Source: a virus
DNA: 28,484 nt
Strand: one strand, 5' to 3'
Virus record (IMG/VR): IMGVR_UViG_3300017748_000089
Span: 1 to 28,484 of that record
In this document: positions 3,001 through 17,460 of the stretch, one piece after another
How the letters are laid out: each line of letters opens with the position of its first letter
Position numbering within the stretch: the first letter of the stretch is position 1
Notes under the pieces: generated by a model
The model's database searches: none
The model's input: the letters and a program-made list of their open reading frames with translations, nothing else
Told to the model about the DNA's origin: nothing
Program-made: the position numbers and the translations under genes

Positions 3001-6000
3001 CATGTTATCAGGGTTTAACTCTAATAAATCTCTAAATATATCTAAAACTAAACTCTTACCCTCTTTAATGTCTAACATATTCTCTATGTTCTTTTTTAAG
3101 GTGTTAGTTTTTTGTCCAGCAATTGCTTTTTCCATTTTAGCTAACTGCTCCCTACTATATTTGTTATATTTTTTAGGATTAGATTTAACCACGTCTAACA
3201 TTTGCTTTTGAAGATCTGAAGTTTGCATAGTCATACCAGCTTCAATAGCTTCTAATGTCGGCTTCATTGTTTCTATAGCTTCAATTTCAGCTTCTTTAGT
3301 AAGTTTATCTATAGTTTTTTGTGATGGATTTTTAACTGTGCTTAACTTTCTTTTTAAAAAAGTTTTAGTATAGTTTTTAACACCAGTTTGGTAATCACCT
3401 ACTAATGGAAATTTATCTTTAACTGCTTTCAAAAAGTCAGCTCTAGAACTAAAAATACCTGAGCCAAACATTCTAATTTTATTTTTAGATTTTTTTGCTA
3501 AGTCCACAAAGAAATTACCTCCAACATCTAAAAAATCTCCTTTTGATTTTTTAATTATATTATCAATTGTTGATTTTTCACCTAAAATTTCAGGTATAGA
3601 TTTATACCCTTCCTTACTTACTACTTCCGCTATCTTTTTAGCAGACATAGATATAGGACTAGCTCCAGCTTTAATGTCAGCTACTAGTTTTTTCTCAGCT
3701 GCAGTTTCTACAGGCATTTTAGACCTTGTAGCTTCATTAGCTATCTTCATAGCTTCTACCATTGCCATACCTTTAGCTAGCTGACCATTAACAGTTCTAT
3801 CGTATGTTTTTAAATCTTTACCTATTAATAAGTCTCCTTGGACTTTAGATATAGTTTCTGGTGTAGCATTTTTAAACTCAGGTTTTAATCTGTATACAGG
3901 TGTCTGGCTAGTCAATCCCTTAGATCGTTTGCCTGTTGGCTCATAAAAGTATTTAATTATTCTATTAGGTAAACCAATACCTCTACCTACAACTTCTCTT
4001 GATACATCTATAGATTCTCCTTGTTTATTGACAATAGCTTCTTCACTAGTGACATTTGTTTCAGGTAAAGTTTTTATAAACCTTTTCATATTACTTTTAT
4101 CTGAAAAGAATTTTTGTATGTTACCAAACTCAGAATCGCTTATAACACCTTTTTCACCTGGCTTAGCTACATTGCCTGTTTCTAAATTAATAAGTTTTTT
4201 AGCAAAAGTTAAATTTTTTCTAGGATCAGATATTTTATCTGCAGGTACTTCAAATATTAATTCACCAATTTCACCAACTTGTTTCTTTGGCGCGCCACCT
4301 ACACCTGGCTTCATGTCTTGTAGCTCTATAGTTTCAACTACTTCTAATATTTCTTTTTTCTTTCTGTTAGCTTCTTTACCTTCAAAAGTACTTATTTGTC
4401 TTTCAGTTTCTTTAACAGCAGACTCTTTGCCTTCAACTATAGTTTCAGGCGTACTTGTGTCAGCTACTTGTCTAGCTGTTTCAGAATCGATACTAGTAGT
4501 CTTAGCTTTATCTCCTATTTCACCTTCATAAAATGCTTGACGTTTAGGTCTTATATTACTATTAATCCATGTTGAAAGCTTAGTACTACCATCATATCTC
4601 TCTAGTATACTAACAAATTCTTTATTGATAAAAGATATAGCGTTTTCAGGTGGTATATCTCCTTTAGCTATGTCATAACCTAAAGCTTTTAAACCAATAT
4701 TGTTATATTGTTTTATTAAATCTTCTATGCCTTTAGTATCTATAGTTCCATTTTTATATTCTTTAGCAAGATCATTTGCTTTTTTCTCTGACAACTGAAC
4801 AGGAGTTTCACCATCTTTAACTAGCTCAGCATATTTCTCTTGAGCTTCTTTAACTTTAGCTTTACCTTCTGGAGTTTTTTCTATACCAGTAAAAAAGTAA
4901 TCAGCTACATCTGCACCGTTTTTAAGTTCTGTTATTACATCTGCGCTTACTTCTTTAAATTTAATATTCTTAACTAAATCATTTAAAGCTCCTTCATTTT
5001 GTAATTCTAAAAATTCATTTATAAATTCTTTTTCAATCTGAATATTTCTTTTACCACTTTTAATAAGTTCGTTATATCCAGGTCTTAATTTCATTTCAGC
5101 TTCAACTCTATTAAATACACCTAACTCCTTAAGCCTCTTTTTAAATTGATCTATGTATTCTATATCTTGTTTAATTATAGTCTCTCTAGCAGCTTCTATA
5201 TCACCTTCAGCGCCTGCTAATTCCCTAGCTCTTTGTTCTACAGCTCTAGAATCAAATCTATTTTCAAAAACAGGGTGAAATACTTCATGCTTAAGTGTTG
5301 ATCCTTTAAAACCTTTTATAACATAGTTTTTACCTCCAGAAGTAAACTGAAATTTACCACTTTTAGGCATCATTGCATCTTTGTTTATTACAAAAAGAGG
5401 TTTACCATTTTTAACAGTTTGAAAACCGTAGCCAGTAGATTCAGCAGATTGTTGCTCACCAGCTTCTTGTTTTAGCTTTATAAACTCATCTTGACCAACT
5501 TCTTTAACTTCCGTTCCTTCTGCTTTTACTTTTTCAGCATAGTCTAAAGTTTCATCTATTCTTTCTCTAGCTTGACCTTCACCTATGTCAATTAATTCTT
5601 TTTGTTTATTTTGCTCAGTTAATATCTCAGTTTCAAGTCTTTCTTTTTGTCTATCGTAATTAACTTTACTTATCTCTTTGTTTTTAAGTAACACATCTAG
5701 ATCTCTTAAAGCCCCTTCATTTCTTTGTACTTTTAAACCACTCTCTATAAACTTCTTGCCTTGAGCACTACTAGCATCTCCAAAAAAGTCTCCAGCTTCT
5801 CCATACATAACTTGAGAAGCTTTGAGTATTTCATTAGCAGCTTTTGGACTAAATCCAATTTTTTGTAATTCTAATGTAGGAACTACATCCCCATTTGCAA
5901 AACCAGCTTTAGACAAATTAGCAACATCAGCTGCTGATACTTCTCCAGTTGCTTCAATAGACTTTAAACTAAATACTAAATCATCATAAGTAGTATTCCA

Positions 6001-8556
6001 GTTTTCTACTCCTTCATTTTTAGCTTTTACAGCTTGCTCATCTATAGCTTTTTTTAAGTTTAATTTTTTACCTAAATTTTTTATAGCATTTATTTGTTGA
6101 TCTGCTTCTTTAGCTGTAAATTCAGGGTTATTAATTACTTCTGCAGATTTTAATTCTACTGCTTCTGCTATTTCTTCTTCACTCCAACTACCTTCTTTTT
6201 TAGTTTTTAAACCTAAATCTAAAGCAATAGTGTTCCATTCTCTATAATTTCTTCCTAATGTAAATATGTCGTTTTTAAAGTTCTTAACAGCTTTATCCAT
6301 AAAACTGCTAGGATGTGAAGCAGACATAAATAATAAAGCTCCGTAAGTTTCAATAAAGCTATCAGTATCAGTGATGTGATGCCATAGCTCACTCATGTCC
6401 ATTTCGCTTTGACCAGTAGCTATATCATAAATACCTGAAGTTAATTCTCCACCTTTTATTGCAGTGGCACCTAATATAGGTGTTGTTCCAAATTTAACAG
6501 CACCACCAATTGTACTAAAACCAAACTTGTTGTTAAGCTTTATAACTTCTCTTAAACCAGGATACCTAACAGCAAGCTTAGGTATAGACAACTTCATAGC
6601 ATCTCCAAAAGCTTTAAATCCTAAATGACCTATTTGAGAACCAAGTGCAAACGGTATAACAGCCATTTTTTCAGAACCAAAAATATTGCTACCTATAGTA
6701 TTACTACCTACTAAACCAACAGACTCTTGAAGAGTTCCAGCAGTTAACTGGCCAAAAACATTAGCAGCTCCTTTACCTATTCCAGGTACTTTAGCCATAT
6801 TATAAGCAACTAAATCTCCAATGCCAGTAGTTATTCGTGAAACGTTTTTAACGCCACCTAACATACCCATAGTTAAACCTATTTCCATACCCATCTTAGT
6901 AAAGCCAGGTATAATGCTAGCTAGTTTTTCTCCAGAAAAATAACTTTCTTCTATTTGTTTAACATATTTTTTACCACGTTCACCTAAAAACTTTTCGACA
7001 CTTTCATCTACTTCAAAACCTAATTCATCTTCAAATACGTCATATGCTAATACATTTTGCATTTCATTAATACCTAATGTATTTCCTCCAAAAGCTACTA
7101 CAGTTTCTTCACTTAATATATCTCCAGTGCTTTCTCTATCTATTTTAGTTAAATCAACATTTAACCCCATTGCTAGTTGCAATGTTTTAAATTCTTTTAA
7201 TGTTTTATTATAGTCCCTAACTAACGGGCTATCACCCATAGGTAAGTAGGTTAAACCAGTAGGAGCTAACCCAGTGTTGTTCATTGATTCTAAATCTTTA
7301 AAATCTTCTCTTACACTACCTCCTTCATCAAACATGTTTATTAAACTAGCAAAACCACCTGCTGCTCCAAGTCCTGGTATGTTTCTTATTGCTTCTGCAC
7401 CTCTTTGAGCTAGATTGCCTTGGCCTACTACATCTTCATAACCTTTTTTATAAAGTTTAGTACCTAAAGTAACTAATTTGCTTTCTATTCTATCGTAAGT
7501 TTCGTTAAGCTTATCAGAATCTAAATTACCATACTTTGCTATTGCTCTTTTATCTTGTTCAACAGCTTCTACTTTCTGCTCGTCACTTAGCCTAGACTTA
7601 TCTATAAACTTACCATCTTCATCTATTAAGCCTTCTACTCTATTTGTGTTTAATATTTCTTTTAAAACATTATCTTTTTCTTCTTTAGATACCGCACTCT
7701 TTAACTTGTTATAAAGACTTTCTCCAGCGTATTTTTTTATTCTATTTTCTATGCCTTCTGATCTATGGTTGTTAAAATATTTTACTATGTCTTCTTTAAT
7801 TTGTTCATTAGATAGACCAGCTCCTTTACCATCAGGGCCAAGCACTATTTGATCTTGAACATATTGATCTCTTTTTTTATTTATATCACCTATTTCTTTA
7901 TATTCTAAAACATTAAAAACTTCAGCAGCTCTAGGACTTGAACCATCTTCGTTAGCAAAAGATTTATTTATTCTTTCATTTATTTGTCCAATAACCCAAT
8001 TTTTTTGATTATCAGGCACGTCATCAATACCTTCTATAGCTTTAGCCCCTTCAACACCTAAGCCGTTTAATATTTGTATTTGTTCTATAGAATAGTTATT
8101 TGTAGGATCTAAACTAATTGAATTTTCTATATTTGCTAAATCTTCTTCTTTATTATTATCTACCCAAGCTTTAAAACCTATTTCATTTTGCATTATTGCA
8201 GAAGTCATCGGCGCTTGCGCAAGATTAAAGTTGGAATTTAACTTATCTATTTCTATTTTGTTTCTATCTGCAAAAGTAGTTGGCGCAGGTGCTTCCGTCT
8301 GTACAATACCTAAATCTAACTTTTCATTAATATCAACATTTGCAAGTTGAAGATCAGTAGGAGTTAAAGGCTTTTTTTCTTCTACTTCAATAGTCTCTTC
8401 TACTTCACCGCCTTCAACAGTTACGTTATTACCGGGGTCAGCTATATATGATTTTACATCTTTATAACCTTTAGCTTGTCTAACTTCTTCTAGCATCTCT
8501 AGAGTAACTTCTACTACTGTTCCGTCTTCTTGTGTAAAAAAGTAAGTTTCGTCCAT
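1..8556 (-). CDS. Giant multidomain (polyvalent-type) virion/ejection protein, C-terminus outside window
   Basis: The frame is open from the ATG at 8556 to base 1, giving 2852 codons and no stop, so the C-terminus lies outside the window. Visible from the N-terminus: an acidic stretch (residues 1-60); charged helical sequence; a Gly/hydrophobic region (about 540-755) that could contact membrane; HEVFH at 1090-1094, the HExxH zinc-binding motif of zincin peptidases, with E1181 in a NEFLE context as a possible third ligand; a stretch at about 1270-1385 resembling sigma-70 region 2 (ILERYDGSTKLSTWINSNI); a HAD phosphatase motif set (DFDDT at 2135-2139, LTAR around T2213, ADD ending at 2270); a conserved-looking domain at 2305-2440; and a C-terminal region with NARSALLQ at 2738 and an SFAIAFGGA-type motif near the edge. 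Mosaics of enzyme domains in giant phage proteins are known as polyvalent proteins, thought to enter the cell with the DNA. It starts 1 nt after the internal protein gene, consistent with an ejected protein. Enzyme activities are inferred from motifs only. Confidence 0.88.
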   Translation of the reverse strand, partial: MDETYFFTQEDGTVVEVTLEMLEEVRQAKGYKDVKSYIADPGNNVTVEGGEVEETIEVEEKKPLTPTDLQLANVDINEKLDLGIVQTEAPAPTTFADRNKIEIDKLNSNFNLAQAPMTSAIMQNEIGFKAWVDNNKEEDLANIENSISLDPTNNYSIEQIQILNGLGVEGAKAIEGIDDVPDNQKNWVIGQINERINKSFANEDGSSPRAAEVFNVLEYKEIGDINKKRDQYVQDQIVLGPDGKGAGLSNEQIKEDIVKYFNNHRSEGIENRIKKYAGESLYNKLKSAVSKEEKDNVLKEILNTNRVEGLIDEDGKFIDKSRLSDEQKVEAVEQDKRAIAKYGNLDSDKLNETYDRIESKLVTLGTKLYKKGYEDVVGQGNLAQRGAEAIRNIPGLGAAGGFASLINMFDEGGSVREDFKDLESMNNTGLAPTGLTYLPMGDSPLVRDYNKTLKEFKTLQLAMGLNVDLTKIDRESTGDILSEETVVAFGGNTLGINEMQNVLAYDVFEDELGFEVDESVEKFLGERGKKYVKQIEESYFSGEKLASIIPGFTKMGMEIGLTMGMLGGVKNVSRITTGIGDLVAYNMAKVPGIGKGAANVFGQLTAGTLQESVGLVGSNTIGSNIFGSEKMAVIPFALGSQIGHLGFKAFGDAMKLSIPKLAVRYPGLREVIKLNNKFGFSTIGGAVKFGTTPILGATAIKGGELTSGIYDIATGQSEMDMSELWHHITDTDSFIETYGALLFMSASHPSSFMDKAVKNFKNDIFTLGRNYREWNTIALDLGLKTKKEGSWSEEEIAEAVELKSAEVINNPEFTAKEADQQINAIKNLGKKLNLKKAIDEQAVKAKNEGVENWNTTYDDLVFSLKSIEATGEVSAADVANLSKAGFANGDVVPTLELQKIGFSPKAANEILKASQVMYGEAGDFFGDASSAQGKKFIESGLKVQRNEGALRDLDVLLKNKEISKVNYDRQKERLETEILTEQNKQKELIDIGEGQARERIDETLDYAEKVKAEGTEVKEVGQDEFIKLKQEAGEQQSAESTGYGFQTVKNGKPLFVINKDAMMPKSGKFQFTSGGKNYVIKGFKGSTLKHEVFHPVFENRFDSRAVEQRARELAGAEGDIEAARETIIKQDIEYIDQFKKRLKELGVFNRVEAEMKLRPGYNELIKSGKRNIQIEKEFINEFLELQNEGALNDLVKNIKFKEVSADVITELKNGADVADYFFTGIEKTPEGKAKVKEAQEKYAELVKDGETPVQLSEKKANDLAKEYKNGTIDTKGIEDLIKQYNNIGLKALGYDIAKGDIPPENAISFINKEFVSILERYDGSTKLSTWINSNIRPKRQAFYEGEIGDKAKTTSIDSETARQVADTSTPETIVEGKESAVKETERQISTFEGKEANRKKKEILEVVETIELQDMKPGVGGAPKKQVGEIGELIFEVPADKISDPRKNLTFAKKLINLETGNVAKPGEKGVISDSEFGNIQKFFSDKSNMKRFIKTLPETNVTSEEAIVNKQGESIDVSREVVGRGIGLPNRIIKYFYEPTGKRSKGLTSQTPVYRLKPEFKNATPETISKVQGDLLIGKDLKTYDRTVNGQLAKGMAMVEAMKIANEATRSKMPVETAAEKKLVADIKAGASPISMSAKKIAEVVSKEGYKSIPEILGEKSTIDNIIKKSKGDFLDVGGNFFVDLAKKSKNKIRMFGSGIFSSRADFLKAVKDKFPLVGDYQTGVKNYTKTFLKRKLSTVKNPSQKTIDKLTKEAEIEAIETMKPTLEAIEAGMTMQTSDLQKQMLDVVKSNPKKYNKYSREQLAKMEKAIAGQKTNTLKKNIENMLDIKEGKSLVLDIFRDLLELNPDNMPLISYMLWHPKSNSHVLRNFATMKSRELGQDFNYEEHGLPFGEFSLAIINGLRAPRKVWNELKDFMHEQYYQASISKESKNILDHPKRNLDKEGNIIEDWSSATELHPLSKKQMDQAAKGEISYKDVIDPFDMRKYNEYKSDRGYINPNKQMTLDKNGKLISDAKKYDLEVSDFLSENPAIIEAQNKLIYELNLTKAGVLKGKKAVTLKDAKKTLDYIIKARGTKQADLAFKETKTEIDEPGVMNTSEKMTTEELVEKARTIDKALQMADRPNMPKKKIRIFDFDDTVARTNSKVFAEREGERIELTAEEFAEKGMELIDQGYEMDFTDFNRVVEGKKGPLFDLIKKLKEAPGERDLFILTARAPESQQAIFEFMKAMGVEIPLENITGLGNSTGEAKANWIIDKAAEGYNDFYFADDAPQNVKAVKTAMSQLDVKSKVQLAKENKINFSEKKTKELDWKTDKAGNIKTTFNIGKKKYNFNLDARDSKGSFDVEFNLGGRIDMTGTGDAVKVIRTVYNGLLDIVGKTPKIKRLEFSSLKSETSRVKLYTTLMDRVAKKLGWETDIWESNDFITPDKSSYDFEITKPRKKQVAPVEKALNVIDVKSKVQKARLNTSEKMNTTFNEILEQSTGIDAVKVFSDVKAQVRGGKKKGQRFFIPPSAEDFLGLLYTTLPKGKKGEKAMKFYQDALLDPYTRAMTNLSTSRVNLMSDFKALKKQLDVPKDLKKETESGFTNEQAVRVYLWNKVGEKIPGLSKTDLKELSDIVEKDPKLKVFADEILSITKGDGYSKPGEGWANGTITTDLVDILNTTKRGKYLETWKENIDVVFSKDNLNKLEAAYGKKYREAVENSLSRMKKGSNRVAGGNRLSNQVLDYINNSTGVTMFINARSALLQTISAANFVNWSFNNPYQAGKAFANQPQFWKDFKQLINSDYLKDRRNGLKLNISESEIANAAKTSKNKAKAVLSYILEKGYAPTKYADSFAIAFGGASYYRNRVKDLM

Positions 8557-8557
8557 A

Positions 8558-10306
8558 TTACATCATTGGATTGTATGGTAAATAATCTGAAGATTCTTTT
8601 CTTAGTTTTGAATTATTAGCGTTTTCGTATAAGCTAAATTCAACACCAATAGTTCTAAATAAGTTTTTCTTACTATCAGGTGTTAGTTTACCATCTTTAA
8701 ATTTAATTTTATTATTATCAGCTATCATATCATAACCACCTTTATATTGACCACTTTCATCTATATTAATAACAAATATTCCATTAGTATTTTTCTTTAA
8801 GTCTTCAGGAACAGGTATGTTAGCATTTTTAAATGTATCTACAAGAGTTTGATAATCCATTATATTTTGCTTATCACCAATACTTACATCATAGTTTTCA
8901 GCTACTAAATCTTTATTTTCTCTATAAAAATCTATTAAATCTTCTTCACCACTAAAAGCGCCTCCATCAGCATAGGCTTTTTTCAAAGCATTTTCAGCTG
9001 GTTGGTAATAATCGTTAAAATTATCAGCAAAACTTTGTTTATAAGAATCTGTATAGCTAGTAGTTTTCTTGCCATCCTTATCTACTTTATACTTGTTAGT
9101 TATCTCTTGTTCTGATAAAGTAGTTTCAACTGGTTGACCAAAGAAATCATTAGCTAATGTAGCTATACCTTCAGCAGCAGCTTCTCTAAATTTGTTTTGT
9201 ATATCTATGTATTCTTCAGGGCTTACTATTTTATCACCATCTTTATCAGCGGCCGCTATAGCAGCCGGGTTTGATTTTAAATTCTCTATAGCTTGCTTGA
9301 CAGAAGCTTTATCATTTATATCACCTTGAGTAAAAGTACTCCATGGTTGATCAAATTCTTTACCTTTAATTTTACCTAACCCATTTAACTGAGTCCATGT
9401 TTTTGACATATTAGATTTATAAGTACTTTGAATAAGCATGTCTTTGTGGTTATCCATTAATTTACTTTTATAATCAACAACTCCAGATACTACTGTTTTT
9501 GTTTCTGAATTATTTTTAGGATTAAATACAGTTTTTGTAGATTTAACTGGAATTAAATCTTTAAAGTCTTTTAATTCATTTTGTAATTCAGCTCTATATG
9601 TTTTACCTGTAATATCTTGCTCTCCGCTTATAACATAGCTAGCTAAGTTATTTCCTTTTTGAGTGAAAGTTTCATTAGCTGCAAATATATCTCTGCTTAT
9701 AGACTTACCGTTATCGTCGGTGTAACTAAACTCCACGTGGCCTGTCTTGGCGTTTGTAGATACATTAAAGTCTTTAATAAATCCCGCACTTAAATCAGAG
9801 TCAAATTTTATTACATCAGGATTATTCAAAGCTTCATCTGATAACCTACCTGTCATAGAGTTATTATTCATTGCTGTTCTATGTCTTTCAAATATTGTTT
9901 GACTTTTAGAAGCATTTACACTATACGTAGCTACAGCTTTTAAATTAGACAAACTCATTTGTCTGTATTTTTGATAAGCTTCTACATCTTCAGCAGTTGC
10001 ACCTGGCTTAGATGCTGCAGCTTTTAAATCACCTATCATAGTAGCTTCTTGTCTTATATAAGCATTTAAAGCGGCTTTAGTATCAGCCGGAGCTGAATCT
10101 ACTTGGTCAGAATACTTATCCATTAAAGCATCTGAAGTTTGCATACCTATAGCTATAGCTTTTTGTGATTGCTCTTTTTTCATAGCAGCTGCTTTTTGCA
10201 TTTTGCCTATAGTATTTAAACTACCTTGAGTTGCTTGCTGAACTGCTCCAACCGCTTGTTGAGTGAATTGTTGCTGTGGTTTTAAATTTACTTGTCTTTG
10301 ACTCAT
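8558..10306 (-). CDS. Internal virion protein with EF-hand-like loop
   Basis: A 582-residue protein starting at the ATG at 10306 (MSQRQVNL), preceded by the A-rich leader AAAAAACAATAAT typical of this window. An upstream TTG in the same frame (10381) would add 25 residues, but those overlap another reading frame and look non-coding. The N-terminal about 150 residues are Gln/Ala/Lys-rich and helical; the rest is charged, soluble, and has no signal peptide or membrane span. Residues 354-365 (DKDGDKIVSPEE) match an EF-hand calcium loop: D at 1, 3 and 5, hydrophobic at 8, E at 12, flanked by helices. The position between the gp14-like protein and the giant protein, with 1 nt to the latter, suggests an internal core or ejection protein comparable in place to T7 gp15. 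That role comes from gene order, not from recognised homology. Confidence 0.8.
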   Translation of the reverse strand: MSQRQVNLKPQQQFTQQAVGAVQQATQGSLNTIGKMQKAAAMKKEQSQKAIAIGMQTSDALMDKYSDQVDSAPADTKAALNAYIRQEATMIGDLKAAASKPGATAEDVEAYQKYRQMSLSNLKAVATYSVNASKSQTIFERHRTAMNNNSMTGRLSDEALNNPDVIKFDSDLSAGFIKDFNVSTNAKTGHVEFSYTDDNGKSISRDIFAANETFTQKGNNLASYVISGEQDITGKTYRAELQNELKDFKDLIPVKSTKTVFNPKNNSETKTVVSGVVDYKSKLMDNHKDMLIQSTYKSNMSKTWTQLNGLGKIKGKEFDQPWSTFTQGDINDKASVKQAIENLKSNPAAIAAADKDGDKIVSPEEYIDIQNKFREAAAEGIATLANDFFGQPVETTLSEQEITNKYKVDKDGKKTTSYTDSYKQSFADNFNDYYQPAENALKKAYADGGAFSGEEDLIDFYRENKDLVAENYDVSIGDKQNIMDYQTLVDTFKNANIPVPEDLKKNTNGIFVINIDESGQYKGGYDMIADNNKIKFKDGKLTPDSKKNLFRTIGVEFSLYENANNSKLRKESSDYLPYNPMM

Positions 10307-10319
10307 ATTATTGTTTTTT

Positions 10320-10511
10320 TCATGGTGGCCATGTTGTGGAACCACTATTAAATAGACTTGTTGAAGTGTTAACAGGAACAACTACAGCTGTACTACTTGG
10401 AACTACCGGATTTAGCACTGGTACACTTTGTTGAGTAGGATCTATAATTATAGGTTTCATACCCGTTAAAGGATCTGTAGTTGGGCTATTAGAGGGGGCT
10501 ACCCCGCTTGA
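10320..10511 (-). CDS. -1 frame extension of the gp14-like gene, or a separate 46-aa small ORF
   Basis: The gap between the gp14-like stop (10499) and the next ATG (10306) is 192 nt, far larger than other gaps here. It is covered by an open frame ending at a TGA at 10320-10322. It can be read two ways. As an independent ORF it starts at the ATG at 10460 (MKPIIIDPTQQ) and encodes 46 Pro/Val/Thr-rich residues, but it lacks the A-rich leader that other genes have. As a -1 extension it continues the upstream gene from the slippery heptamer at 10511-10517 and adds 63 residues, giving a 280-residue product. I favour the extension. A natural indel or an assembly error in the G/T run would look the same. 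The function of the tail is unknown. Confidence 0.5.
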   Translation of the reverse strand, partial: SSGVAPSNSPTTDPLTGMKPIIIDPTQQSVPVLNPVVPSSTAVVVPVNTSTSLFNSGSTTWPP

Positions 10512-10517
10512 AAACCC
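10495..10517 (-). promoter_or_regulatory. Candidate -1 ribosomal frameshift signal
   Basis: On the minus strand, in the zero frame, codons read ACG GGT TTT CAA GCG GGG TAG. The heptamer G GGT TTT (10511-10517) fits X XXY YYZ exactly. After a 5-nt spacer (CAAGC) comes GGGG-TAG-CCCC (10495-10505), a short 4-bp GC hairpin with a 3-nt loop that encloses the zero-frame stop. Slippage by -1 reads on as TCA AGC GGG GTA and remains open for 63 codons. The hairpin is small for a stimulator, so efficiency could be low. Confidence 0.45.
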
Positions 10518-11161
10518 GTACCTGCGGAAGCTGAAAGAACACTAGTAGCTCCTGTTACACCAGCCATTAAAGCTGCATCTGCAGCATCTTCTAAGCCCAT
10601 TTGTCTTGATCTTAAAAAATCAGATTCACCATAAGCCCTATCAAGCTGTGCTTGAACTCTTGCATCTTCACCTGCTGCTGCTCTTTCTTCAGCTGATATA
10701 GCTTGTGATTCTAAGTTGATTAACTGTTGTTGTTTCTGTTGTTCTCCTTGGGCTTTAAGTTTTTGATTATCTGCTTCTTGTTTTTCTATACTAGCTGAAA
10801 CTCCTTGTTTAGATTTAGCTGCAGCCATAGCTAAAGCAGTTGCTCCACCAGAACCCATTCCAGTAGCTTGAATAGTTTCTAAAGTGTTAGCTAAAGAAAT
10901 ATCAGCTTCTTCAGCTTGCATTTCAGCTGCTTGAGTAGCAACGCCTAGATTAGCATATGGATTACTAACCATAGACTTCATAGCTCTAATTTTACCTGAA
11001 GCATCGTAAACATCTTCTCTATTATCTAGTAGGTCATTTATAACACCTTGCGCAGCTTGAATATCATTATTCATATCTTCCGCTTTGTTGTCATTCATAA
11101 TTTTAGTTATTCCTCCTATTACTAAAGGTGCTGCGACTGCAGCTACTATTGCAAAACTCAT
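10499..11161 (-). CDS. T7 gp14-like internal virion protein
   Basis: The 220-residue zero-frame product begins MSFAIVAAVAAPLVIGGI, a hydrophobic N-terminal segment that could insert in the host envelope. It is followed by an Ala/Gln/Glu-rich helical body containing SMVSNPYANLGVATQAAE, GSGGATALAMAAAKSKQG and a Q/K-rich coiled coil (about 125-165). Short proteins with a hydrophobic N-terminus, Ala-rich helices and SNPYANLGV-like motifs are, to my knowledge, typical of phage internal/ejection proteins annotated by analogy to T7 gp14. The ATG overlaps the stop of the upstream cupin gene in an ATGA arrangement (11158-11161), indicating translational coupling. The C-terminus may be extended by frameshifting (see the entry at 10495-10517). 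Confidence 0.75.
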   Translation of the reverse strand: MSFAIVAAVAAPLVIGGITKIMNDNKAEDMNNDIQAAQGVINDLLDNREDVYDASGKIRAMKSMVSNPYANLGVATQAAEMQAEEADISLANTLETIQATGMGSGGATALAMAAAKSKQGVSASIEKQEADNQKLKAQGEQQKQQQLINLESQAISAEERAAAGEDARVQAQLDRAYGESDFLRSRQMGLEDAADAALMAGVTGATSVLSASAGTGFQAG

Positions 11162-11591: not shown

Positions 11592-13289
11592 TTAAGATGA
11601 TCTTACTACTTCACTGCTTAAGCTCCATATTTCTTTAGCTCCACCAATATTTGTAACTTGGTCTGTAGAAAATGAAACCTTAGCAAAATAACCTTTTATA
11701 CCTGTCATTTGATTTCCAAATCTAACTTCTCCTGCAGCTGCTACACTGTCATTAACTAAGCTTGCTACATATTTATTTTCTTTTCTATTAAAACCAGCAT
11801 AACTTTCTTGGCCAGTTCTAGGGTCAGTATATCTACCAGCTTCATAACTAGGTATTGATACAGTTTGATCTATGTTGTTTGTGGTGTAGCCAATTGGACT
11901 AGTTATAGGAAATGTTCTATTTTGCTTATTACTACCACTAGTTACTACACTTACATTCCAACCATTATCACCTTCATAACTTATAGTTTTAAAATTTTTC
12001 ATCAAAGACGGTGAAGTATTAAATACAAACTCAACATTACCTATACCTTGATTGCCATAAAAATTCATATAATTACCACCTGAATAGTGCTCATATATAT
12101 TATTACTTGTAATAGAGTAAAATTTACCATTAACACTTGTTATAAAGTTAGGTTTGTAAGTGTAAAAACTTACCCAACCCTTAATAGTTTCATCAAAAGT
12201 TAAAGTGCTATAATTGTTTTGGTCGATATGACCAGGTGTTTGTTGTAAAGACAAAGTATAATTTCTACTATAATTATCATAACCACCTATTATTAAACTT
12301 TTATAAGAATACTGAAAAAAGCCTCTAGGTTCATTACCAGAGTTTCCTGTTATAACAATATTTCTATCTAAAGTAATTGTCATTTCATTAGCGCTTGACG
12401 TGTCAACCACGTTGACAACTACGCCTAACGTTTCAACAACGCTATTTATAGTTCTTTGAAACAAACTACCTTTTAAAACTTTTTCAGATTTATCACAAAT
12501 AACATTAAAACTCTTTACAGCATTTGTAAAAGTTTGACCAGCAGAAAACGTCCAAGCTAGTCTTATTATTTTGCTTGAGTCGTTGATTAATTGCAAATTA
12601 TCTCTAAAATAATCTTTCATACCGTATTGAGATATTTCAGTTATGCCGTCTCTTGATAATCTTAAAACAACGCCTCTATTTTTGTCTGTATAATATTTTC
12701 TTGTGCCAAATTGAGCAAATGACTGTGGATCTTTTGATATACCATATTCTCCAGCGTATGGCACGTACTGGCCCAGTGTTGGTATCCCAGCTCTTTCTGC
12801 TGCACCTTGATCTCCTGTGTATATAGTATTTTTATTTATTAATAAGTATCCAGATTTTAATTCTTGAAGAATTATTAAATTAGTATCTTCAGCATATAGT
12901 TTTTGTATACTTCCATTGCCAGGATTTAAATCTTTAGATATAGGAGAAGCTAATGAAAAAACATTTGTATCATTATTGCCTGTTTTAGAATTAAATATTC
13001 CAGAAAATATTACGCTAGCACCTCTTCTTTCTTGCACAGGATCTTCTTCGTTTATAAAAGCTTTAACTCCTAGAGAAACACTAGTATTGTTGTAACCTCC
13101 TTTTATTCTAGACTCTTCAATTAACCAATTGCTAGTAGCGCTAGTAGTTTTAGCATTACCAGGAAAAGTTGGATAACCAGTAGGATTCCAAGGTCTACCA
13201 GGCCATATAGGTCTAGCTGGGCTTTGGCTATTTAATACTTTTTTTACCCAAAAAGAATTAAAGTATTTTATGTTAACTGTAGCTGGCAT
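11592..13289 (-). CDS. Tail structural protein
   Basis: The protein has 565 residues and starts MPATVNIKYFNSFWVKK, 1 nt after the stop of the 1389-aa tail gene. A Pro-rich N-terminal segment (about 22-45) precedes a Ser/Thr/Asn-rich, beta-rich body with no signal peptide or membrane span. Motifs I associate with a family of uncultured marine phage tail proteins are present: WLIEESRIKGGYNNT, VFSGIFNSKTGNNDTNVFS-like sequence, LYAEDTNLIILQE and ISQYGMKDYFRDN. Close coupling to the upstream gene suggests that the two products assemble together in the tail hub or distal tail. No catalytic motif is visible. Receptor binding or a nozzle role is possible but not shown. Confidence 0.75.
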   Translation of the reverse strand: MPATVNIKYFNSFWVKKVLNSQSPARPIWPGRPWNPTGYPTFPGNAKTTSATSNWLIEESRIKGGYNNTSVSLGVKAFINEEDPVQERRGASVIFSGIFNSKTGNNDTNVFSLASPISKDLNPGNGSIQKLYAEDTNLIILQELKSGYLLINKNTIYTGDQGAAERAGIPTLGQYVPYAGEYGISKDPQSFAQFGTRKYYTDKNRGVVLRLSRDGITEISQYGMKDYFRDNLQLINDSSKIIRLAWTFSAGQTFTNAVKSFNVICDKSEKVLKGSLFQRTINSVVETLGVVVNVVDTSSANEMTITLDRNIVITGNSGNEPRGFFQYSYKSLIIGGYDNYSRNYTLSLQQTPGHIDQNNYSTLTFDETIKGWVSFYTYKPNFITSVNGKFYSITSNNIYEHYSGGNYMNFYGNQGIGNVEFVFNTSPSLMKNFKTISYEGDNGWNVSVVTSGSNKQNRTFPITSPIGYTTNNIDQTVSIPSYEAGRYTDPRTGQESYAGFNRKENKYVASLVNDSVAAAGEVRFGNQMTGIKGYFAKVSFSTDQVTNIGGAKEIWSLSSEVVRSS

Positions 13290-13290
13290 A

Positions 13291-16200
13291 TTAAATTGTT
13301 TGTTCTATTTGTAATTTAACTAAGTAATCAGTGGATAATCCTCCTCCGTCAGTAAGTCTAAAGTTGTAATCAACTTGATAAAAAATACCTGCTGTTCCTA
13401 CAGGTACGCCAATATCACTCATTGGAGCTGGAAATGCATACCATTTAGTTTTGTTAACGTTAGTAACAACTCCAAAAACAGCAGTACCATAATCACTAGG
13501 CTGCAGATTATAAACACCATTTTGATCCCATTTGCCACCAAGGCTATTATTTGACGAAATTGCGTTTGGATTATTAGTAGGATCAAAATACATTTCTTGA
13601 CCACTCACCAAACTAAGTGTGCTAGGCTCTGGATATTCTGCTCCAATACTAAAAAACCCGTATGCATTGGGATTAACTAAGTCAGGAGCAGTAGGTACAA
13701 AAGGATAGTGAGTTGGCATTACATATCCATTACGGTTTATAGTTCCAAAAGGTCTAAGTGAACTCCCTCCCGTAACTCCATTAACCCCATTATTGCTTGT
13801 AAAAGTTGCTGCATCTTGTGCGTTAACAATTCTAAGCTTAGCGTCTATAAGTTCCCATTGCAAACCTTCGTGATCTCTACCGGTATCAATACTTCCATTT
13901 TTAACGTTTGTAAACTCATAAATATACGGATTAGAATTACTAAGTTGATTTTTGTTAATTAAAACAGTTGTAAAACCAACACCTAAAGGATCTGCATCTT
14001 CCCATATAGGAGCTATATTATCACAAGAACCTTGAAAAGTTTTAGTAACCGTGTAGCCATTAGTTTGTATTGCAACCTGAAAAGTAAAAGTAAAACTAGG
14101 AGCATCATTTGTTACTACAAATGTGTTATTTGTCTTTAATCTAAAACTACCATTTCCAACAGACTCTAAAATAAAATCAGAAATTCTATCAGCATTATTA
14201 CCGTCTGTAACAAATAATAAAGTACCAACACTATTAACATTAACTATGGATTGATTAGCGCTGTCTCTTGGAAAAAATGCATTTGTAATAGCAGTACCTG
14301 AGGCCATTCCTTCATTTTGAGAATAGTTTATTTGAGTTAATCCAATAGGAACTATATCAGTTGTTGTAAGTATTTCATTGTTTAATTCAGATATTAAGCC
14401 AGATGAAGTTGTTTCCCAATAAATATTTAAATTAGAAAAAACAGGTAGTGTTTCGGCAATAGAAAGCTGTGTTGAGAAATTATTTGAAATTCTAGTACCT
14501 AAAACATTGTTAGTACTAACTGTGCCTATAAAAGGATTATTTTTAGCATTGTATATAGGTAAAGGTGGTAAAAAACTTAATACATCATCTGCTGAAACAG
14601 TCACTGATTGAGAAAGCAAAACTGCTCCATCTTCGTTGCTTGTGAACTTATAATAAGCTAACACATAAACTTCATCGCTTTCTTCTAATCCAGCAACGGC
14701 AACACCAGCAGAGTCTACAGCTGTAACTAAAGAGCCAAAAGGTACATTATCTTCGTTAGTCCATTCTTGAAATATTATAGTTTGATTAGAACTTTGATTA
14801 GTTGCTATTTCTTTTTGAGTAACACCTGGATTAGCAATTCCTAAATCTGACATAGTGCCTATTTGAATTACTTTATCAAGAGAAGAACCAGGATAATATT
14901 GCTTATTAACTGTAGAAAAATTATTAACTCTAAAAGACAATAACTCATTTGATCTAAAAGCAACTTGAGCTGGACCAACATCTGATAAGTCTTTTGGTAT
15001 TTTATTAACGTTATCTGAAAATATAGAAATCTTTGCTTGGGTCGGGTTGTCAGTAGTGCTAGTATCTAAAGTTCCATTTAACACGCCAGGTAAGTAAGCA
15101 TTGTAGTATTCTTGTTCTTGTTGTTTTACTACTATTTTATAACTATACCAGCCTAAATGATTTGGTTGAGCCAGAGGGTTATATAAAAAATTAGCAGTTC
15201 CACTTCCTCCAGTTATTGTTATAATATCTCCATTTAAATATCCAGAGCCTTCATTTGATATTTCTAACTGAACTATATTACCAGCTCCATTGTTTTGAGT
15301 TATATTAACTGTTAAACCTGATCCAGTGCCTCCAGTAGTTGCTACATTATTAGCTAAACCATACGAAGCTCCTGGAAACAAATTTGCTATTTCATCTTGA
15401 TCCATGCCTGCGTAAAGGCCTGGATAGCCTGGTTTACTATAAGAATTGGGTATAGTTGAATTAAACAAAACTATTAAATTATCCCCTGGCCAAGTTGAAG
15501 AAGATGTTATGATATTGGTTTCAAAACCTTCTTCCTTAAAAGGAGCATATATAGTAGAACCTCCAAAATTAACACCACCGAAAGTTTTAGGTAATTGATC
15601 TACAGATGATAATATAACATCTGACTGCCTACCATATCTGTCTGCCAAAACTATACCAACTTGATAAGTTCTATTTTGTTTTAATGTATGATTTTGATAT
15701 TCTTGTTGAGTTTTTTCTTCAGAGCCTTGTATTTTGTCTCCTATTCCTACTTTATAATCTAATGTATCTAAAGAAGTATGTCTATTTAAATAATTTCCAT
15801 ATATAATTCTATTACCACTTATAGCTTGAGATTGTGCTTTAATTGGCACAGAATCACTAACTCTTGTAGTTTCAGCAGTAGAAAGAACTTTATAAGGTGC
15901 TCTAGACTGGTAAGTGTAAATTATTTTTTTAGTAGTGTTTTGAATAAATTGTTGAAAAGGTATTTCAGCAACAACTTTTATTACATTTTCTTGAGATTCT
16001 TTATAAAGTATTTCAATAGAAGATACATGTAAATCTCTATTCAATGTAGAATAAGAACTTGTAGGACATGGTATTACTAAATCTATTTCGTTTATTGAAT
16101 TAGTAAAAAATTCTAAGTCAGTAGCATCTAATGCTTTTTGTTCATCACCTACTTGAATATATCCATCTTGTCTAGGTACAAAACATTCTTGAGTGAAAGG

Positions 16201-17460
16201 AGCAGATAAAGAATATTCATTATCAACAAATTTATATCTATAACTAAACCTAACAAATCTATTTCTTAAATATTCGCAATCTCCAGGCCAATCAGAAACG
16301 TAACTCGGATTAGGTGCTGAAAAAGTTAAAGTATCACCTATCTCCCAGTCTGTAGGAACAGTATCAGGAGCGCCTCCAGAATTTATAGGATATTGAATAT
16401 TAAACGCACTACCTCCTAGTTGAGCATTAAATTTAGCTGGACCTGTTTGAGGAGCGTCTATGTTTTCTATTTTCCAAGTAGTTGCTGGTGATGGTGTTAA
16501 ACCAGAATCAATGTTAATTGTTGTTGATCCAGAAAAACCTGTTATATTGCCAGCAATACTAGGTGGTAAATATTCACTACAACGATCTCTCATTGTAGAT
16601 TCAGTTTTAACAGTTAAAGTTAATGTAGCTCCTCCAGTCTTAGGCGCTAGTTGAACTACATCTCCACTTGTATAATCTACGCCAAAAGTATTTATTGAGA
16701 CTCCTGTTACAGATCCATCACTACTAACACTAGTTATATCTACAGTCAACCCAAAACCCGTACCACCTACGCAAGGTAATCCAATGTTGTTACCACTATT
16801 AAATAAAGAAAAATAACCAGATGGAGCGGTTGGATCTCCACTACCTCCATCGTTAGTTATAGCTATACTTTCAATAATATCATCTATCAGACTTATGCCT
16901 TCAAAAGGATAGTATTTAGCTACAGATATTTGATCTTCATTTGTGTAATAATTAGGAACAGTGTCAAAATTAGGATTAGCTGTTTCTACATTTATTTTTC
17001 TAGGTTGATTTCTGTTGTCTGTAAAAAAAAGTAAACTTTCTATTAAATCAACACTAACAATTGGATGAGTTAAAGAAAAATTTAAAAAATTACCAGAAAC
17101 TAAAAGGTTAGATGTATTATTAGAAAAATTAAAAGACCATATTTGACAAATAGAGCTAGAAGTAGCAAAATAACTTAATGTGTCACTAGAAGAGTCTGTA
17201 TAATCTGTTATAAATATGTAAATAATATTATTTGATTGATCTACTAAATTACCGTTTATGTTTACTCTAGAGTTATTAGTATATCCAAAATCAGTTAAAG
17301 AAACATTACCTAGTATTGTTTCTACAGTTCCTACACTATCTCCTTCAGAAGCGCTAATGCTTATATTAGTAGCATTTCTATACTCTCCACTTGGAATCAA
17401 CCTGTCGTCTAAATCTTTATTCATTTTAGACTTTATAAAATTAGTTGTAATTTTAGTCAT
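13291..17460 (-). CDS. Large tail protein (stabilization/tail-hub type) with two GxGYxxGD beta modules
   Basis: This 1389-residue protein has a recognisable N-terminus: FIKSKMNKDLDDRLIPSGEY (residues 8-27), then VGTVETILGN, a signature I know from large tail or 'stabilization' proteins of marine and crAss-like phages. The remainder is Ser/Thr/Asn/Gly-rich beta sequence. Two copies of a small beta module are embedded at about 226-286 (ending FGVDYTSGDVVQL, a degenerate copy) and 697-760 (GSGYLNGDIITITGG). The DRYGRQSDV segment near residue 614 is another familiar element of the family. There is no signal peptide or membrane span. The start at 17460 is 2 nt after the connector gene, and the stop is 1 nt before the next tail gene, so translation is probably coupled. 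It may be the main tail-hub, nozzle or adhesin scaffold. Confidence 0.8.
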   Translation of the reverse strand: MTKITTNFIKSKMNKDLDDRLIPSGEYRNATNISISASEGDSVGTVETILGNVSLTDFGYTNNSRVNINGNLVDQSNNIIYIFITDYTDSSSDTLSYFATSSSICQIWSFNFSNNTSNLLVSGNFLNFSLTHPIVSVDLIESLLFFTDNRNQPRKINVETANPNFDTVPNYYTNEDQISVAKYYPFEGISLIDDIIESIAITNDGGSGDPTAPSGYFSLFNSGNNIGLPCVGGTGFGLTVDITSVSSDGSVTGVSINTFGVDYTSGDVVQLAPKTGGATLTLTVKTESTMRDRCSEYLPPSIAGNITGFSGSTTINIDSGLTPSPATTWKIENIDAPQTGPAKFNAQLGGSAFNIQYPINSGGAPDTVPTDWEIGDTLTFSAPNPSYVSDWPGDCEYLRNRFVRFSYRYKFVDNEYSLSAPFTQECFVPRQDGYIQVGDEQKALDATDLEFFTNSINEIDLVIPCPTSSYSTLNRDLHVSSIEILYKESQENVIKVVAEIPFQQFIQNTTKKIIYTYQSRAPYKVLSTAETTRVSDSVPIKAQSQAISGNRIIYGNYLNRHTSLDTLDYKVGIGDKIQGSEEKTQQEYQNHTLKQNRTYQVGIVLADRYGRQSDVILSSVDQLPKTFGGVNFGGSTIYAPFKEEGFETNIITSSSTWPGDNLIVLFNSTIPNSYSKPGYPGLYAGMDQDEIANLFPGASYGLANNVATTGGTGSGLTVNITQNNGAGNIVQLEISNEGSGYLNGDIITITGGSGTANFLYNPLAQPNHLGWYSYKIVVKQQEQEYYNAYLPGVLNGTLDTSTTDNPTQAKISIFSDNVNKIPKDLSDVGPAQVAFRSNELLSFRVNNFSTVNKQYYPGSSLDKVIQIGTMSDLGIANPGVTQKEIATNQSSNQTIIFQEWTNEDNVPFGSLVTAVDSAGVAVAGLEESDEVYVLAYYKFTSNEDGAVLLSQSVTVSADDVLSFLPPLPIYNAKNNPFIGTVSTNNVLGTRISNNFSTQLSIAETLPVFSNLNIYWETTSSGLISELNNEILTTTDIVPIGLTQINYSQNEGMASGTAITNAFFPRDSANQSIVNVNSVGTLLFVTDGNNADRISDFILESVGNGSFRLKTNNTFVVTNDAPSFTFTFQVAIQTNGYTVTKTFQGSCDNIAPIWEDADPLGVGFTTVLINKNQLSNSNPYIYEFTNVKNGSIDTGRDHEGLQWELIDAKLRIVNAQDAATFTSNNGVNGVTGGSSLRPFGTINRNGYVMPTHYPFVPTAPDLVNPNAYGFFSIGAEYPEPSTLSLVSGQEMYFDPTNNPNAISSNNSLGGKWDQNGVYNLQPSDYGTAVFGVVTNVNKTKWYAFPAPMSDIGVPVGTAGIFYQVDYNFRLTDGGGLSTDYLVKLQIEQTI

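Follow-up and report, generated by a model that had tools for sequence, protein, structure and literature searches.

Phages T7 and T3 produce a minor long form of the major capsid protein (gene 10A/10B) by −1 frameshifting (PMC4283147; PMC5009743). The locus described here resembles that system in that a podovirus virion protein would carry an optional C-terminal extension reached by a −1 slip near the stop codon. It differs in that the gene lies at the gp14 position after the tail genes and has other extensions, and in that tails pass from lineage to lineage and the slip sites are of several kinds. The Ig-like extensions of phage proteins (T3, A2 and Listeria phages) are decoded by −1 or +1 frameshifting or in frame, and were spread by non-homologous recombination (PMC5009743). 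Both −1 and +1 arrangements were also seen here, and the cassettes move; however, the tails are 16–63 aa, too short to qualify as Ig-like domains, and their carrier appears to be a small helical ejection-type protein. In lambda G/GT, the slip site is GGGAAAG. The −1 shift at an X_XXY_YYZ heptamer and GGGAAAG itself are common to both systems, but the gene studied here is not in a tail-chaperone position, its product is probably a virion protein, and family members may have or lack the extension. The initial annotation had called frameshifting unfamiliar for such proteins, and in agreement with this the open-licence literature yielded no case of frameshifting in a protein that is ejected or internal to the virion. 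The kind of frameshifting is known; the protein class and the cassettes appear to be new.

We analysed a viral DNA of 28,484 nt (the window), in which programmed −1 frameshifting had been proposed for a gp14-like gene. The features of the locus are as follows:

10499..11161, minus strand: gp14-like zero-frame gene, encoding a probable ejection protein of 220 aa; stop codon TAG at 10501-10499
10517-10511, minus strand: slippery heptamer G_GGT_TTT, in register; its first codon, GGT, is 5 codons before the stop
10506..10510, minus strand: 5-nt spacer CAAGC between the heptamer and the hairpin
10495..10505, minus strand: candidate stimulatory hairpin GGGG-TAG-CCCC, pairing across the zero-frame stop
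10320..10511, minus strand: −1 frame extension of 63 codons plus TGA, from TCA at 10511 to the TGA at 10322-10320
8558..10306, minus strand: next gene, 582 aa, beginning MSQRQVN, gp15-like by gene order; ATG at 10306

When the minus strand was re-read, the heptamer GGGTTTT, the 5-nt spacer and the GGGG/CCCC hairpin were found as the initial annotation had placed them, and its figures for the open −1 frame (63 codons) and the gap (192 nt) were confirmed. The zero-frame gene ends with GCA GGT ACG GGT TTT CAA GCG GGG TAG. The extension (SSGVAPSNSP...TTWPP) terminates 13 nt before the next ATG. Adding its 63 codons to the 217 upstream of the slip gives the predicted frameshift product of 280 aa, with the predicted junction peptide ...GTGFSSGVAPSNSP...

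The closest relative, L001, came from a separate assembly and was 99.83% identical to the window over 7.7 kb, with all features kept. The two sequences differ by 13 SNPs; the only one that falls in the extension (GTG/GTA at 10416) leaves the amino acid of the −1 frame unchanged. Two further relatives from another metagenome, L002 and L004, are about 80% identical to the window. In both, GGTACGGGTTT and GGGGTAGCCCCCTCTAATAGCCC are unchanged and the heptamer at the corresponding place is GGGTTTC; the remainder of the extension has strongly diverged from that of the window in sequence and in length. A closed −1 frame in homologues, which would speak against frameshifting, was looked for, and L002 and L004 were found to keep it open. 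The next relative, the sister L003, has neither a slip site near the stop nor an extension, and its gap is 15 nt.

To define the family, we collected 184 distinct gp14-like gene ends by five protein scans of public viral contigs, using different members as queries; a DNA-pattern scan of viral contigs yielded no further locus beyond these. An in-register X_XXY_YYZ heptamer 2–5 codons before the stop, together with a gap-filling −1 extension of 16–63 aa, was present at 29 of the 184 ends. The initial annotation had suggested a comparison of homologues, and by this count the heptamer and −1 extension recur in 26 further distinct sequences beyond the close relatives. The heptamers are mostly GGGAAAG, with GGGAAAT/C/A, AAAAAAG, GGGTTTT/C and one TTTGGGG, and the zero-frame stop mostly follows directly (GGGAAAG_TAG). 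GGGAAAG and AAAAAAG have been described as shift-prone in E. coli (PMC5009743). An additional case beyond the 29, L402, is a Bacteroidetes MAG contig with the site GGGAAAT_TAG.

The heptamer was strongly associated with a long gap (Fisher p = 6e-20). Where the gap was at least 50 nt, 29 of 39 loci had an in-register X_XXY_YYZ in the last six codons, and the counts for the two other registers were 3 and 1; where it was below 35 nt, 5 of 140 loci had an in-register heptamer. As a control, we used other ORF ends from the same loci, with the count tightened against A-rich heptamers and against extensions lying inside the next gene. A strong heptamer with a gap-filling −1 extension was found at 29/182 gp14 ends and at 0/517 control ends; a strong heptamer in the last five codons occurred at 25/517 control ends and a gap-filling −1 extension alone at 5/517. 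The next ATG comes 4–31 nt after the −1 stop at 26 of these 29 loci, with a median of about 14; the median at shift-free loci is 12. Most relatives (140/184) have a short gap and no extension. Since the long form is missing from these and from the sister L003, the family can dispense with it.

Ten long-gap loci lack such a heptamer. Two of them, L051 and L288, have T_TTT_TAA/TAG at the gene end, and L277 and L278 have G-rich sites. In L304, L369 and L370 the extension is in the +1 frame at GCC TTT GGG TAA C, which resembles an RF2-type site, and the long gaps of L049, L102 and L246 are of other or ambiguous cause. L277 and L278 have near-identical gp14 bodies and different junctions; that of L278 reads TGA and then an out-of-register GGGGGAAAGTAG, which may reflect a recent indel beside a slip site.

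Windows of 22 nt were then folded at every offset relative to the heptamer in the family loci. A sharp energy minimum was obtained 0 to +3 nt after the heptamer (mean −6.5 kcal/mol, compared with −0.4 to −2.9 elsewhere), with a modest regional mean z of −0.9. The stems vary by lineage (AACCCC/GGGGTT in L120, AGGGGC/GCCCCT in L126, GGGCC/GGCCC in L138), as expected if position and stability, and not sequence, are under selection. The window hairpin has a short stem of 4 bp and is no more stable than dinucleotide shuffles (z +0.3); it carries weight because it is unchanged in L002 and L004 and because the family-wide stability peak is at the same position.

The capsid and portal proteins of the window matched those of Flavobacteriia phages (Flavobacterium phage elemo, Cellulophaga phages and Maribacter phage Panino) and of the spring-water podovirus ctfjg026; the portal additionally matched a Tenacibaculum phage. 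Several related contigs, L402 among them, are in Bacteroidota MAGs. The gene order, with tail genes, the gp14-like gene, the 582-aa gene and a gene of more than 2852 aa, is the T7 gp14-gp15-gp16 arrangement. Searches of isolate-phage DNA and proteins with the window gene and the L120 gene gave no match, and neither PHROGs and Pfam nor a PDB sequence search matched the window protein. A structure predicted from 85 homologues was dominated by long helices. The fold argument is weak, because the model is poor (pLDDT 58) and Foldseek found no match to it in the PDB. A gp14 homologue of phage Peru-2 has been described as a two-helix protein (PMC13320782). The gp14-like label given by the initial annotation thus stands on gene order and helical make-up, without a match to any solved structure; it denotes position and a probable role, not established homology to T7 gp14.

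A frameshifted gene upstream of long virion genes, with GGGAAAG as the commonest heptamer, could also be a tail assembly chaperone of the lambda G/GT kind, whose frameshift product would be a non-virion chaperone. We consider this improbable. The isolates nearest by capsid and portal carry podovirus names (elemo 'FspP', ctfjg026), and podoviruses have no long tail or tape measure. Most relatives have no second frame, and members with a longer C-terminus matched a PHROG annotated 'DNA ejection protein' and had weak similarity to the S74 chaperone. The syntenic gene of Cellulophaga phage phi40:1, gp099, encodes a virion protein by mass spectrometry, according to its record note. Its PHROG (13764, virion structural protein), which also includes elemo gp20, is like the window gene in position and size, with weak profile similarity; however, both isolates are without a frameshift and their next gene follows within about 3 nt. 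For the window protein, virion location is assigned by synteny, the homologue being very remote (hhalign probability 79 for the elemo counterpart). We infer a small helical ejection protein, internal to the virion, both forms of which would be present there.

Coding signal in the second frame was examined by dN/dS. Five alignable extension pairs (L120/L121, L125/L391, L022/L031, L031/L172 and L085/L104) gave values of 0.12–0.36. Two pairs showed no purifying selection (1.4 for L002/L004 and 1.2 for L005/L253), both so poorly alignable that dN/dS is uninformative. Coding selection on the second frame is clear for those five pairs only. The −1 frame could be a small gene in its own right, starting independently and translated by coupling or reinitiation near the stop. 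The window frame does contain one internal ATG (TGMKP), and a start-like codon was found within the first 15 codons in 8 of the 29 extensions; the other 21 had none. A separate gene would also leave unaccounted for both the in-register bias (29/39 against 3 and 1) and the hairpin after the heptamer, and we hold it to be slightly less probable than a chaperone.

Less likely again is transcriptional rather than ribosomal slippage as the source of the second frame. A few sites are indeed runs (AAAAAAG; TTTTTA in L051 and L288), but most, that of the window included, are GGGAAAG-like or GGGTTTT, with runs of at most about 5 and a hairpin behind them. Runs of this length are short by comparison with known transcriptional slippage. 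Least likely of all is an indel, decayed gene or assembly error that broke a once single frame in the window copy: although homopolymers (GGGG, CCCCC, TTTT) lie at the junction, the identical arrangement occurs in another assembly (L001) and another sample (L002/L004), the 29 distinct loci come from many datasets with differing heptamers, and a search for fused-frame homologues found none of these extensions in frame. The recurrence excludes this explanation.

Programmed −1 ribosomal frameshifting, giving forms of 220 and 280 aa as first proposed and now backed by homologues, is very probable, because of the site, its register, the position-conserved hairpin, the gap-filling frame, purifying selection in several extension families, recurrence and cassette exchange. 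The comparative case is about as strong as sequence alone permits. Most ribosomes would stop at the TAG and release the 220-aa protein. A fraction, pausing at the hairpin just past G_GGT_TTT, would move back by one nucleotide and translate a further 63 codons, giving the 280-aa form with an unchanged body and a C-terminal tail. Both forms would enter the virion, where the tail of the minor form may provide a changeable contact with the host envelope or with a partner in the virion. We infer slippage in the host, and its efficiency.

The initial annotation had asked whether the heptamer and the −1 frame are conserved in homologues. Site and frame do recur; the extension itself is a variable, swappable cassette and is not family-wide. 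The L125 and L391 extensions are 93–95% identical in DNA, and the flanking sequence is mostly 40–70% identical, with unrelated gene bodies; L255 and L288 follow the same pattern, with like extensions and unlike flanks. Conversely, the bodies of L125 and L126 are alike but their extensions differ, and outside the cassette L072 and L070 share about 97% identity; of these two, L072 has the site and extension and L070 has neither. On a quick gene tree, the 'shift' label changed 21 times. The extensions were not found elsewhere in the fetched DNA, and some relatives have other, unrelated in-frame tails or no tail. The extensions behave as exchangeable cassettes, judging from these comparisons.

That tails are swapped while bodies stay nearly constant points to variability in whatever the tail contacts, most probably a part of the host; alternatively, tails that can be dispensed with may turn over neutrally. 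We propose, tentatively and at somewhat less than an even chance, that the slip site serves as a docking port. Bacteroidota phages would swap short C-terminal cassettes behind the slip site of an ejection gene, so that a minority of the injected subunits carries a diversifying tail fitted to the host envelope, the periplasm or a virion partner, and the abundant form stays constant.

Few phage proteins are known to be extended by frameshifting, and programmed frameshifting at this locus would add a new virion-protein class to them, in a phage group that is widespread and largely uncultured. Some 30 naturally occurring versions of the site, the hairpin and the tail are available, and the swapping of cassettes provides a natural experiment on the reason why a virion protein is also made in a minor long form. 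Usual ORF annotation would overlook such sites, since all it shows in each of these genomes is a short gene with an unexplained gap behind it.

Three further observations were made in these genomes. An in-frame Peptidase_S74-like (endosialidase chaperone) C-terminus, just under the Pfam cut-off, was present at L168:1998-3032, L089:1899-2846 and L267:1938-2921. In the window, two genes at 11592-17460 divide PHROG 14478 (a 1474-aa virion structural protein) between them: its N-terminal part matches a 1389-aa gene and its positions 920-1103 a 565-aa gene. Maribacter phage Panino (L399) has 15 tRNA genes and an annotated tmRNA at 3462-6225, near its structural genes.
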